From positions 1 through 42,330 of the forward strand of contig JAIUMA010000027.1 in assembly GCA_022565795.1 (NCBI GenBank): a stretch of 42,330 bases of DNA. Direction: 5' to 3'. Shown here one piece after another: positions 14,573 through 42,154 of this stretch. The stretch comes from Balneolia bacterium. GTDB taxonomy: Bacteria > Bacteroidota > Rhodothermia > Balneolales > Cyclonatronaceae. Below the pieces are notes generated by a model. That model did no database searches. It saw only the letters and a program-made list of their open reading frames with translations, and was not told the origin of the DNA. Made by a program: the position numbers and the translations under genes. Numbering within the stretch: the stretch's first letter is position 1; every line of letters begins with the position of its first letter.

Positions 14573-14616
14573 GAATTACCGGACACGAAAACTTTTACCC
14601 GAAGTTTTGCAGTGAT

Positions 14617-14860
14617 GAATGTACGGCAGGTCTCCTGGCTCATCCGGATTCAATTACAGTCGCCTTCCCATTTCTTTGGGCTCGAAACAGTGGCATGAGA
14701 CTGTGAATGAGAACTCATGGCTGCTTTATCCAACTGACGCAAGTTACGCGCCTGAAGTTTAAAAAACTGCCATCAGCTCCGGAATTACAGTTGCGGGTAC
14801 AGCTTCCGGTTTTCACGGAATTCCCGTTTTAATTGCCCGTTCGGGCAAACCAGTACATTC
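14617..14860 (-). ncRNA. Cobalamin riboswitch controlling the btuB operon
   Basis: Read on the minus strand, the conserved elements of the cobalamin aptamer appear in order: a 5' P1 arm gaatgtac (14853-14860), a P2 hairpin tttgcccgaacgggca, aaaacgggaattccgtgaaa, the core cccgcaactgtaa, the gccactg element, gggaaggcg, and finally the B12 box agccaggagacctgcc (complement of 14625-14640). The 3' P1 arm gtacattc (complement of 14617-14624) pairs perfectly over 8 bp with the 5' arm. It ends 44 nt before the btuB ATG. No T-run follows, so control is probably at translation: B12 binding would hide the start region, lowering BtuB and probably the BtuG-like protein as well. Confidence 0.93.
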
Positions 14861-15017
14861 GTTATCTGATGACCTATGATAGGAGGAATTTTGATTTCCT
14901 GCAAAGGCTTATTGGAATCCATTTTATGATGGCACTTCTGGACCGCAGAGTTTTTTGGACTGCAACTCCCGAATCGAAGGCTCAGTAACCATGCAGATTC
15001 AGCTTCTGATAGAAGGG

Positions 15018-25642: not shown

Positions 25643-26842
25643 TTAGTCCGTTGACATTTGGGTTTTGAAGGTCCGGATGCGGTCGTAGGATTCCCTGATT
25701 CGGGATTCCGGGATGATGCCTTCATTAACCTTCTGACTTATTATACGGATGGCCCTTTCCGTTATTTCAGGTTCGTAGACTGAATTATTGGCAAAAACGA
25801 GCACATCAATGCCTGCGTTAACCGCCAGCTCCAGGGCCTGCTCCAGTCCGTAATAATCGGTGATGGCGCCCATTTGCATATCGTCTGAGAAAAGCAGGCC
25901 GGTAAAACCCAATTCATCGCGAAGCATGTCGGTCATAATTTCGGGCAACAGCGTTGCCGGATGCTCTGTGCTCCAATTCTCGTTAAAAATATGCGCCGAC
26001 ATCACCAGCTCCGCGCTGCCATCGGCGAATAGCTCTTTGTAGGGTAACAGTTCGGATTCATCCCATGTTTCGGTGACATCCGCCATGCCGTAGTGGGAAT
26101 CATTCCAGGCGCTGCCATGTCCCGGAAAATGCTTGATCGTACCCCAAAGTCCGGCTTCACGAAAGCTATCAAGGAATATGCGGCTGTGTTTGACGACCTC
26201 ATCCGGATTGGCAGAAAAACTACGCTCCAGGCGCCCGATTACGGGATTATCGGGATTTGAATTCACATCCACCACAGGCGCAAAATTGATATTGATGCCC
26301 AGATCAGAAAGCACCCTAGCTGTTCGGCGGGCATGGTAACGGGTCGAATCCGGCTCGTTCAAATCACCCAGGTACTGCATGCTAACCGTGGGTGGAAAAC
26401 CAAACCGCGTCTTCAGCCGGTTCACGCGCCCGCCCTCCTGATCGATGGCAATCATCAGAGGCATCCCGGGGTCCGCATACGACTGAAGCTGCTGAATCAG
26501 ATTCCGCACCTGATCCGGTGACTGCACATTCCGGCCCGATCGCCCAAGCGGCACATCATAATCAAACAAAATCACCCCGCCAAGATTTCGCTCACGAATA
26601 TCCTCCACGATGCGCTCGCTGCCGCTCAGTTCGTATCCGCGAAAACCAACCATCATCATTTGCCCGATCATGCTTTCGATCGAAGGATAGGATACATCTT
26701 CCGGCTCATTAGTCGAATTTTCACCATTGTTCTCTCCGGCACATCCAAATACGAACGTAGATGCAAGCAGCAGCAAGAAGGTTAACAACAGCACAATTTT
26801 GGCTATCACAAGAGTACGAAGCGGGAATGGTTTACGCGACAT
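25643..26842 (-). CDS. nagZ: Glycoside hydrolase family 3 beta-N-acetylhexosaminidase, NagZ-like lipoprotein
   Basis: A 399-residue GH3 enzyme. The ATG at 26842 was preferred to a TTG two codons upstream. An N-terminal hydrophobic stretch ends in FVFGCAG, a plausible lipobox, so unlike the cytoplasmic Escherichia coli NagZ it probably works in the periplasm or on the outer membrane. The barrel shows IDQEGGRVNRL, NFAPVVDVN, the GH3/NagZ hallmark KHFPGHGSAWNDSHYG with the catalytic His loop, and the nucleophile Asp in FSDDMQMGAI. The second GH3 domain is absent, as in NagZ. It should release N-acetylglucosamine from muropeptides or similar glycans during wall recycling. It lies 143 bp upstream of hemW. 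Confidence 0.9.
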   Translation of the reverse strand: MSRKPFPLRTLVIAKIVLLLTFLLLLASTFVFGCAGENNGENSTNEPEDVSYPSIESMIGQMMMVGFRGYELSGSERIVEDIRERNLGGVILFDYDVPLGRSGRNVQSPDQVRNLIQQLQSYADPGMPLMIAIDQEGGRVNRLKTRFGFPPTVSMQYLGDLNEPDSTRYHARRTARVLSDLGININFAPVVDVNSNPDNPVIGRLERSFSANPDEVVKHSRIFLDSFREAGLWGTIKHFPGHGSAWNDSHYGMADVTETWDESELLPYKELFADGSAELVMSAHIFNENWSTEHPATLLPEIMTDMLRDELGFTGLLFSDDMQMGAITDYYGLEQALELAVNAGIDVLVFANNSVYEPEITERAIRIISQKVNEGIIPESRIRESYDRIRTFKTQMSTD

Positions 26843-26963
26843 TTCCAACGGAAGAGACTTTCATTAAAATTGTTATTTCAGCTCTTTAACGCAGCTCGTT
26901 GATAATACCACATAATCTGCTTTTGTGCCTAAAGGGGATTTGTATGATAATGATATTGATATT

Positions 26964-27020
26964 GCCATCCATCGCCGGGGCAGCCATCCATCGCCGGGGC
27001 AGCCATCCATCGCCGGGGCA
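26964..27020. repeat. Three perfect 19-nt tandem repeats
   Basis: The unit gccatccatcgccggggca is repeated three times without change (26964-26982, 26983-27001, 27002-27020). The last unit supplies the outer left arm of the palindrome that follows. The repeats lie past the RAYT 3' end. Confidence 0.95.
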
Positions 27021-27053
27021 GGGGCAACGCATGCGTTGCCCCTGCCCCGGCGA
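27010..27053. repeat. 44-nt perfect palindrome (REP-like)
   Basis: A perfect inverted repeat centred on gcatgc (27029-27034), with arms built of ccggggcaggggcaacgc on the left and its exact complement on the right. It ends 9 nt past the RAYT stop codon. RAYT transposases are known to act on palindromic REP sequences, so this is the likely cognate element. In RNA it would form a very strong hairpin and could also end transcripts. Confidence 0.95.
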
Positions 27054-27062
27054 GGTCAATCG

Positions 27063-27676
27063 TCAACAACCCTTCGAGACCTGATCATCCCACCATTTTT
27101 GCGGATTATTTTTGATGTACTTCGTAATGGCGTGATATTCAGACTTTTCTTTTATCACATAGTCATCGAACGAACGCTGCCATCCCGATTCGAGCCCAAG
27201 CCTGTTCAGGTATTTAGTTACCGCTGATTTATAGCTGCCAACAATTGAAGAAAGTGTTCTGCACCCCTGATTTTGAGACCTGCGTTCGGCTGGCCTGTGC
27301 CCAAATTCTATCATCGTTTCAGGTTGTCCAGATATTCTGCAAGAATGATATCCGTTTGCTTTGGATACCCGTTCATAGTGTCAGGTTTAGCCGCTTCGGT
27401 CACTTGTCGATCATGTTCTTTGATGGAAATTATACCATGCACGTGATCAGGCATTATTACAAATGGACCTAAAAATACATCTTCGAAATGGTTTGAGATT
27501 TCGTTCCATAGAACGTAGGCTACTGCTCCCTGCGGACTGTGGAGCATCTTTCCGTTATTTATCATGCCAAACAGCGGCAGACGATCTTTTGTACAAATTG
27601 TAACAAAATACTGGCCCGGCAACGAATATTCCCACCACTGGGCTCTTGGTGACTTGCGCTTGGGATTGGTTATCAT
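27063..27676 (-). pseudogene. REP-associated tyrosine transposase (RAYT, IS200-like), split in two frames
   Basis: Two adjacent frames together make one Y1/RAYT transposase. The first (27311-27676, 121 residues) has the family opening ARWWEY-like (AQWWEYSLPGQYFVTICTKD) and the HUH motif in MPDHVHGIIS. The second (27063-27314, 83 residues) has SSIVGSYKSAVTKYLNRLG with the likely catalytic Tyr, WQRSFDDYVI and IKNNPQKWWDD, the usual C-terminal half. The stop of the first and the ATG of the second overlap (ATGA), and the break falls in the variable linker before RSQNQGC. No slippery run is seen, so this is probably a disabled gene, though coupled translation of two halves is possible. The 44-nt palindrome and 19-nt repeats sit just downstream. 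Confidence 0.85.
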
Positions 27677-27765
27677 GGCTGAATCCTTCTCGTTTAATCA
27701 TTTTTTCTGATTAGAGTGAGGATTTCTGATTTCCTTACAGACGGGGATTCAATTTGTTGCTCCTC

Positions 27766-29469
27766 CTAAATCCCTTCCGCCTTGCCAATCAATTCTTTGG
27801 CGCTGCTGATGACCGCTTCTGTTAGTTCAGGACCGCTCATGAGTTTGGCGACTTCATGGATATGCTCTTCGGCATCCAAACGGTCGATTCGTGTTACCGT
27901 GCGTCCGTTCGATTCCTGTTTTTTTACCACAAAATGGCTGTGTCCCATGCTGGCGATTTGAGGCAGGTGGGTAATGGCGATAATCTGACAGCTTGCGGCA
28001 AGTTCGCGCATGGTTTTACCGACCTGCAGGGCTATGGGACCGCTGATGCCGGTATCAATTTCATCGAATATCATGACAGGCAAGCGTTGTTCCCGTGCAA
28101 GAATCGATTTGAGGGCGAGCATGATGCGGCTCATTTCTCCGCCCGAGGCCGTTTTGGACATCGGTTTTGGCGCTTCACCTTTGTTTGTGGAGATGAAGAA
28201 GCGAACGATATCCGGGCCCTCAGGCAGGCAACCCACGGGTCGGCCTTCGATGTTAATCCAGCCGCTGGATTCGTAGCGCCATTCCACGTTGACGGCAAAC
28301 TGGGCGTGGTTGAATCCGAGACGCATCAGCTCTTCTTCAATGGCCCGGCTGAGGCGCTCCCCCTCTTTTATCCGCGCTTCGTGCAGGTTTGCAGCCTTTC
28401 TTACTAATTCCTGCTGAGCTTTTCGAATGAGGCCATCCAGCTTTTCCAGCTCGAGTTCATAGTTATCAGCCAGGCTCAGGGTCTGTTCCAGCTCCTGCTG
28501 ATAGCCGATAAGCTCTTCCGGCGATTTGCCGTATTTTTTTTCCAGGCGTCTCAGTTCGGCCTGCCGCTGACGCAGCGTCTCGAGTTGTCGCGGATTGAAC
28601 TCTATGTTGTTCTGGTACTGCTCGGTGAAGCGCAAAAGCTCTTCAACGCTGATTCGTGCCGTTTCCAGCTCCTGAATGTAGCTTTCAAATTCGGGCTCGA
28701 GTCGCGCCATTTCGCTGAGGGACTGCTGCATAGCCCGAAGCAAATCCAGCGCATTAACGTCGGCTTCCTTGCCGGCCTGCAAAATTGATCCGGCCGTTTC
28801 GTTCAGCGCCTCGCTGCTGTCGAGGAGATGGATTTCACGCTCAAGAGTTTCAGCTTCATCTTCCTTGAGATTCGCCGCCCGTATCTCCTTCACCTGGAAA
28901 CGGTACAGTTCCTGCTTTTCCTGAAGCTCGCGCTCCCGCTTTTCCAGCTGCTTCCGCTCCTGCCGCAAGCGGCTGACCTCTTCCCAGGCCGCCTTATATG
29001 CCATCATGTGCGGCATCACGTTTTCGCGCTCGTCTATTACATCGCGATGATGCTCTTCGTTGAGCAGCAGCTGATGATCGTGCTGACCGTGCAGATCAAC
29101 CAGCAGTTCACCGACCTGTCTTAGAACGGAGAGCTGCACCGGCGTATCATTAATGAATGCGCGGCTCCCGCTCTGGCGGACTTCTCTGCGAAGTATGGTT
29201 TCCTCAGCGGGTTCTACGCCGTACTCCTGAAACAAGGCATGGAGCTTATCATCCTTTCCCGTATGGAGCACCACTTCCGCGATAGCCTTGTTGGCACCCT
29301 GCCGGATCGATTCCGTTTGGGCGCGTTCACCCAGCAAAATATTCAGCGCACCGATGATGATAGATTTTCCGGCCCCGGTCTCACCCGTCATGATGTTCAG
29401 ACCCGAGTCGAACGTGGTTTCGAGTTCGTCGATCAGCGCAAAATCCTTAATATATAATGATGTCAGCAC
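27766..29469 (-). CDS. recN: DNA repair protein RecN
   Basis: A 567-residue SMC-like ATPase that helps repair double-strand breaks by holding broken ends or sister chromosomes together. Walker A is GETGAGKS at 29-36, preceded by the family start YIKDFALIDELE. A long coiled coil fills about 150-370 with many Glu, Gln and Leu heptads. The C-terminal half has the signature ASGGEMSRIMLALK and Walker B VMIFDEIDTGISG, then an H-loop THLPQIAS. The length is normal for RecN. The start is a GTG; the family begins ML-x2-L-x-I, so no longer start is needed. It diverges from lon across 348 bp; no SOS-type operator was recognised. Confidence 0.96.
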   Translation of the reverse strand: MLTSLYIKDFALIDELETTFDSGLNIMTGETGAGKSIIIGALNILLGERAQTESIRQGANKAIAEVVLHTGKDDKLHALFQEYGVEPAEETILRREVRQSGSRAFINDTPVQLSVLRQVGELLVDLHGQHDHQLLLNEEHHRDVIDERENVMPHMMAYKAAWEEVSRLRQERKQLEKRERELQEKQELYRFQVKEIRAANLKEDEAETLEREIHLLDSSEALNETAGSILQAGKEADVNALDLLRAMQQSLSEMARLEPEFESYIQELETARISVEELLRFTEQYQNNIEFNPRQLETLRQRQAELRRLEKKYGKSPEELIGYQQELEQTLSLADNYELELEKLDGLIRKAQQELVRKAANLHEARIKEGERLSRAIEEELMRLGFNHAQFAVNVEWRYESSGWINIEGRPVGCLPEGPDIVRFFISTNKGEAPKPMSKTASGGEMSRIMLALKSILAREQRLPVMIFDEIDTGISGPIALQVGKTMRELAASCQIIAITHLPQIASMGHSHFVVKKQESNGRTVTRIDRLDAEEHIHEVAKLMSGPELTEAVISSAKELIGKAEGI

Positions 29470-39128: not shown

Positions 39129-39183
39129 CCCACTCTCCCACTCTCCCACTCTCCCACTCTCCCACTCTCCCACTCTCCCACTC
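39129..39183. repeat. 8-nt tandem repeat, about seven copies
   Basis: The unit cccactct is repeated almost seven times without change. It lies between the paralog 2 terminator and the TauE/SafE-like gene, ending about 100 bp before that gene's start, where a promoter would be expected. Copy number may change by slippage. Confidence 0.95.
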
Positions 39184-42110: not shown

Positions 42111-42154
42111 CAACAAAAAAGCCTTCAGTAGTCATGCTGAAGGCTTTTTTGTTG
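42111..42154. terminator. Strong bidirectional intrinsic terminator
   Basis: Arms aagccttcag and ctgaaggctt enclose tagtcatg, with an A-run before and a T-run after, making it symmetric and able to work on both strands. It ends the cotransporter transcript. The remaining bases to 42330 show no gene. Confidence 0.93.

Follow-up and report, generated by a model that had tools for sequence, protein, structure and literature searches.

A single-copy perfect palindrome fused to three 19-nt repeats beside a frameshifted RAYT gene in a Balneolia bacterium, and the symmetric edges of related REP-type palindromes

The stretch of 42,330 nt from a Balneolia bacterium analysed here (the window) contains a perfect palindrome that is fused to three direct 19-nt repeats next to a gene for a REP-associated tyrosine transposase (RAYT, or TnpA_REP). 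The structure is real, non-random and single-copy; it is related to a known kind of REP, from which it has decayed, and its edge is unusual. Comparison of its sequence with related genomes indicates that it is most likely the decayed cognate double-foot REP of the adjacent RAYT, and we incline, with some reservation, to the view that template switching and slippage shaped both its arms and its array. The question touched is how REP palindromes stay perfect amid sequence drift, and how they spread. The window locus itself is modestly interesting; what merits a genome-wide test is the pattern seen in the wider survey, with inverted flank copies peculiar to each locus and arrays linked to RAYTs.

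The 20-nt string GCCATCCATCGCCGGGGCAG occurs at window positions 26964, 26983 and 27002, with a period of 19 and copies that are 100% identical, and TRF reported the array as 3.1 copies with 100% matches and a score of 116. The palindrome arms (27010–27031 and 27032–27053) are 100% complementary over their 22 nt. Array and palindrome overlap: 12 nt (27010–27021) are common to the third 19-nt unit and the left arm, and each unit is composed of 7 nt from outside the palindrome and 12 nt of the left arm. The first-pass annotation had described the palindrome, the three units and the inclusion of the left outer arm in the third unit exactly, omitting the frameshift of the RAYT gene near 27320. When the window was simulated 100 times with a first-order Markov model, palindrome arms reached at most 11 nt, and among the perfect palindromes of the window itself the second longest has 8-nt arms; the palindrome is therefore not a product of chance. 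A search for intrinsic terminators (a GC stem followed by a T run) found 0 sites in 26700–27900, ruling out that the palindrome is one.

Table 1 Features of the palindrome and RAYT region, in window coordinates
Feature	Position	Strand	Basis
Three tandem 19-nt units, GCCATCCATCGCCGGGGCA x3 + G	26964–27021	.	String search and TRF
Loop-free perfect palindrome, 44 bp with arms of 22 bp	27010–27053	.	
28-bp core, counterpart of double-foot REP	27018–27045	.	Comparison with G002 C100:2271–2298, GTAGGGGCAACGCATGCGTTGCCCCTAC
Symmetric arm extension past the foot, TCGCCGGG	27010–27017, mirrored 27046–27053	.	
RAYT N-terminal piece, HUH motif MPDHVH	27311–27676	-	NF047646, E 7.9e-07
Open frame with RAYT C-terminal piece (WQ, YIKNNP)	27063–27380	-	NF047646, E 2.4e-05
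Glycoside hydrolase family 3 (NagZ-like), downstream neighbour	25643–26848	-	PF00933, E 5e-68
recN, upstream neighbour	27766–29469	-	TIGR00634, above cut-off

When the core was searched with up to 3 mismatches in the 3.59-Mb genome, two matches were the two arms themselves, a third, with 3 mismatches, lay on another contig, and no other convincing copy was found. This rules out a dispersed mobile repeat in this genome, and the core lacks the many dispersed copies by which a REP is recognized. The 19-nt unit, with up to 2 mismatches, was absent elsewhere in 6 genomes of the genus, no relative had the array in a shorter or longer form, and no plasmid relatives were found. Among 11 family genomes the core was present, with at most 1 mismatch, once in the window genome (G000) and once in G002, both times beside a RAYT, and in none of the other nine. 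The first-pass annotation had proposed a genome-wide search for the core, with a lack of other copies counting against its reading; the outcome was mixed, as the core is single-copy in its own genome and present at the orthologous RAYT of a second one.

In the congener G002 a 22-bp core identical to that of the window is found once, where the orthologous RAYT, intact in that genome, has its 3′ end. The element there reads CTGGT-GTAGGGGCAACGCATGCGTTGCCCCTAC-ACCAG, that is, a 28-bp core with GTAG/CTAC feet and 5 further symmetric bases. The two elements share the inner 22 bp; in the window the feet are GCAG (27018–27021) and CTGC (27042–27045), replacing GTAG/CTAC, and are followed by 8 different symmetric bases. 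Thus, the G002 palindrome ends as a double-foot REP does, in a GT[AG]G foot on one side and the complementary foot on the other, and its window counterpart does not. Within the genus, double-foot palindromes numbered 4 in G000, 25 in G001, 5 in G002 (this core included), 1 in G004 and 0 in G003 and G005. The four in G000 have other cores and lie elsewhere in the genome, two of them in or beside its other two RAYTs. In G001, five GTAGAGACGC palindromes are spaced ~400–430 nt apart (C1 1052807–1054501), as if a palindrome-bearing unit had been repeated.

Both pieces of the window RAYT match the NCBIfam family NF047646 below its curated cut-off, and between them they hold both Y1-family motifs, HUH (MPDHVH) and catalytic tyrosine (YIKNNP). 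Their two open frames abut at a single frameshift near 27320. Each half can be aligned to the intact ortholog in G002 (50% and 66% identity), which itself matches Pfam Y1_Tnp above cut-off. The window gene thus appears from its sequence to be frameshifted and not intact, and the break is recent, a sequencing error being possible. The GH3 gene matches PRK05337 (beta-N-acetylhexosaminidase) slightly under cut-off. In G001, G004 and G005 recN lies directly beside the GH3 gene without a RAYT. Only in G002 is a RAYT again found beside recN, which is 90% identical there; the gene on the far side of the RAYT differs from that of the window. The distance from the RAYT stop to the palindrome is 9 nt in the window; in G002 it is about 55 nt. 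The flanks of the two genomes do not align by eye, so that orthology rests on the gene order and the identical core.

According to Quentin et al. 2018 (PMC6006769), double-foot REPs flank tnpA_REP genes of subclass 2.4 and insert in frame in them. The window element resembles the TnpA_Y1 subclass 2.4 double-foot REPs as described there in its perfect stem, in ends modelled on GT[AG]G and its complement (the window foot being GCAG) and in its place beside a tnpA_REP gene. It departs from that description in its GCAG/CTGC feet, single-copy core, extra 8-bp symmetric extension, three tandem edge units outside the gene and frameshifted RAYT. The subclass motifs WQ and YIxNNP are present in the window protein, the latter as YIKNNP, whereas NH[IFV]H is replaced by DHVH. 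Neither the window RAYT nor its G002 ortholog has a REP inserted between HuH and Y; a RAYT-internal REP-type palindrome occurs in another RAYT of the window genome (L006). With the REP/BIME and REPtron systems of E. coli, Stenotrophomonas and Marinomonas, as presented in PMC2817692 and PMC8266576, the locus shares palindromes with GTAG-type feet beside a RAYT and tandem amplification concentrated at rayt genes, but the BIME units described there hold whole REPs that alternate in orientation, whereas the window unit is a directly repeated half arm and the core is not dispersed. TIRtrons (TIRYT; Di Nocera et al. 2013, PMC3733652) likewise combine RAYT-like genes with long, partly self-complementary flanking inverted repeats; as described, their TIRs lie on both sides, whereas the window palindrome is one-sided and its ortholog has a GTAG-type core. 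Quasi-palindrome template-switch mutation, as treated in PMC8794818, makes or repairs perfect stems by inverted copying and yields multi-base paired changes, but that account concerns RNA genes, and here we deal with REP-type elements and an extension past the transposase foot. A limited literature search found no published link between template switching and TnpA_REP.

We surveyed 173 RAYT loci, 93 of the order and 80 of a wider genome collection, mostly from other phyla; they were chosen among the matches listed, 19 duplicate or off-topic loci were left out by a hand-written list, and the set was not thinned by kinship. The palindrome density was 0.62/kb near the RAYT and 0.064/kb in the far flanks, a tenfold difference. 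A palindrome was near the gene in 82/173 loci and inside the gene span in 70/173, and 65/173 had double-foot palindromes; 72 of the 87 near double-foot palindromes span 28 bp. The in-gene palindromes are concentrated just past the HUH motif, with 63/72 lying 240–370 nt from the domain start. Such a placement is already reported by Quentin et al. 2018 (PMC6006769), and no novelty is claimed for it. One locus (L278, in G012) has an N run in the palindrome centre, and at another (L132, in G059) the contig ends in a palindrome with 46-bp arms; assemblies break at palindromes, and counts from draft genomes are therefore low estimates.

The symmetric extension past the foot recurs in many double-foot palindromes. 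It measured at least 4 bp in 27 of 67 sequence-distinct RAYT-linked double-foot palindromes, compared with 0.26 expected by chance. Counted by distinct context, 30/86 linked and 26/56 dispersed palindromes had such an extension (Mann-Whitney p 0.91), the 56 dispersed contexts coming from selected genomes after 9 of 73 loci with RAYT signal were dropped and with one L196 palindrome counted twice. This equal frequency rules out that the extension is peculiar to RAYT-linked copies. None of 21 RAYT-linked palindromes outside the order had an extension of at least 4 bp, indicating that the process is not universal; the extension was pronounced in certain genomes of the order, and in the window's genus the dispersed copies showed it weakly. 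In G031, one core occurs at many places with an extension that differs at nearly each of them (TAAATCCC, ATACACC, TGAAAACC, AATCCC, AAAACCC and others).

Tandem arrays (period 9–60) were counted with a single detector within 500 nt of the RAYT gene and in the farther flanks. There were 52 near and 8 far arrays (0.200 and 0.018 per kb), making them 11 times denser near the gene. All 32 arrays inside the gene have periods divisible by three, compared with 11/20 outside it (Fisher p 5e-05), which clearly shows that array growth is filtered by the reading frame. The edge-unit pattern of the window recurs at L073, L089, L111, L138 and, most clearly, at L005, where a RAYT of the same genome has five 15-nt units behind it, joined to half of a palindrome. 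To a sample of 60 other loci we compared each array for an inverted match of its unit in its own flank; the match averaged 8.1 nt in the own flank and 6.6 nt elsewhere, and 12/52 arrays reached p<0.05. The window array is among these: its unit matches 12 nt of the inverted flank, and no other locus sampled gave as long a match. Half-arm units are thus established for a minority of arrays; for the others they are unproven. The locus L005 also has an upstream palindrome (1376–1421) and a short in-frame one (1783–1806), its 3′ units and palindrome spanning 2071–2160; in the third RAYT of the genome, L006 (1802–2023), the in-frame palindrome GTAGAGACGCGATGCATCGCGTCTCTAC is followed by 42-nt and 24-nt in-frame repeats.

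Within the order, 8 arrays lay within 120 nt of 66 RAYT-linked double-foot palindromes and 0 within that distance of 73 dispersed ones, the Poisson probability of zero at the linked rate being about 1e-4. Because of its GCAG feet the window array is absent from this count. No array was found within 120 nt of the 21 RAYT-linked palindromes outside the order. This RAYT link is suggestive of a possible role of the enzyme; the dispersed copies may be younger or otherwise constrained.

The flanks of 20 sites were joined and searched for in congeners, and the orthologs were then aligned; most were filled, half or unalignable, and two sites were clearly empty. At L248, the empty form (G038) contains TTTCCACAGG once, on the left, followed directly by CTATTTTC and with the right inverted copy absent, whereas the filled form (G031) reads TTTCCACAGGCA, core, TGCCTGTGGAAA, GC, CTATTTTC. 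The palindrome is also absent from this site in five more genomes, which align poorly at the junction. At L232, neither the palindrome nor the left inverted copy is present in G017, G012 and G016. At both sites, the inverted arm arrived with or after the insertion, as an inverted copy of the flank. Insertion into ready-made palindromes is ruled out at L248 and L232; L247 and others may fit it. At L247, five relatives (L266–L270) have a different quasi-palindrome where G031 has the REP, which speaks partly against arrival of the inverted arm with the insertion and hints that hairpin sites perhaps attract REPs or get replaced by them. The empty form of L241 is ambiguous, since a deletion between TTAAAT repeats might have produced it; at L230, two species have the inverted copy and others lack it, whether by gain or by loss. 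Ortholog cores showed 21 two-sided pair changes that keep pairing and 11 one-sided changes, in a count that used the best palindrome per ortholog and is biased to intact ones, with L306 lost and L283 and L209 read on the other strand. Taken together, the inverted flank copies at empty sites and the joint changes of ortholog arms point to template switching during replication.

In the mechanism that we prefer, the palindrome would fold during replication, and a stalled nascent strand would switch template and copy one flank, inverted, onto the other side. Such inverted copying would extend the arms and keep them perfect. A backward misalignment of like kind could duplicate the arm edge together with its flank, after which the 19-nt repeats may have slipped from two to three copies; a RAYT-made 3′-OH may have begun the arrays while the gene was intact. 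Template switching is the best single account of the locus-specific symmetric edge and the paired changes and, in principle, of the tandem units. It fits the feet, which are altered symmetrically (GCAG on both sides), and the perfection of a palindrome whose neighbouring gene is broken. Several results count against this explanation. The first duplication of the window unit would have had at most 1 nt of microhomology, only the 12 arrays mentioned passed the inverted-flank test, and the lack of arrays at the 73 dispersed palindromes argues against pure replication slippage, which, with no relative carrying another array length, is not directly seen. Locus-specific extensions with matched empty sites would be a footprint by which copying at insertion could be counted directly, and the RAYT-linked arrays would part enzyme effects from replication effects.

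The first-pass annotation took the tandem units as copies of the palindrome's edge that record the growth of the element by repeated nicking or slippage at one arm by the neighbouring HUH transposase. This is borne out in part: the edge is indeed contained in the units, the pattern recurs at the five other loci, and arrays keep to RAYT-linked palindromes; the nicking is doubtful. In its fuller form, this explanation has the HUH enzyme cut beside the foot and the 3′-OH prime folded-strand or rolling-circle synthesis, producing inverted and then tandem copies of the edge, and we hold it to be possible but rather unlikely. The concentration of arrays near RAYT genes and at linked palindromes argues for it, as do reports that one third of rayt genes are directly joined to BIMEs (Nunvar 2010, PMC2817692), where an amplification targeted to rayt genes, akin to RAYT-driven growth via BIMEs, was proposed, and that the 3′-OH can prime replication for related enzymes (PMC8266576). 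In the window, however, the gene is now broken and the foot is GCAG, which is barely cleaved by the S. maltophilia enzyme, a member of another RAYT group (PMC8266576). The 19-nt units are half stems that alone could not fold as REP substrates, array borders coincide with the foot in the window, but in L005 they fall about 10 nt into the core, and symmetric extension is equally common at RAYT-free sites. Enzyme-driven growth is thus a live rival through the RAYT link of the arrays, and it is weakened for the window. We would also entertain, as possible but rather unlikely, a reading for the whole order in which REP-type palindromes copy their own flank inverted at or after insertion and, at RAYT-linked master copies, hairpin-primed synthesis from the RAYT 3′-OH yields half-arm arrays, filtered by the frame to multiples of three within the RAYT gene; an inverted duplication of the target flank would then, just as tentatively, take the place of a direct target duplication.

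Selection for complementary mutations has been suggested for such palindromes (Nunvar 2010, PMC2817692), and selection on the stem could be another source of the paired changes. The stem would then be kept as an RNA or DNA hairpin, such as a protein-binding site or an mRNA 3′ end, with the paired changes being compensatory. The excess of paired over single changes and the position between the RAYT 3′ end and the next gene agree with this explanation, which we nevertheless regard as improbable: the extension is locus-specific even for identical cores in G031, so that no shared sequence is selected, no terminator-like site was found, and the window palindrome is perfect despite the broken gene. 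It is very improbable that the tandem duplication arose by chance next to a palindrome unrelated to it, or that the structure is an artefact of assembly. Palindromes do disturb assemblies, as seen in the N run and the contig end described above, but the pattern recurs at other RAYT loci, the window units and arms are 100% identical and well inside a 42-kb contig, and chance arms of 22 are excluded. Template switching with slippage, acting on a decayed cognate REP, is retained as the preferred explanation.

Elsewhere in the window, a cobalamin riboswitch (RF00174, 83.6 bits) lies at 14608–14870 on the minus strand, and at 42111–42154 there is a terminator-like inverted repeat (18/18, loop of 8 nt) that has A/T runs. 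The octamer CCCACTCT is perfectly repeated in 6.9 copies at 39129–39183, a possible phase-variable or VNTR tract.
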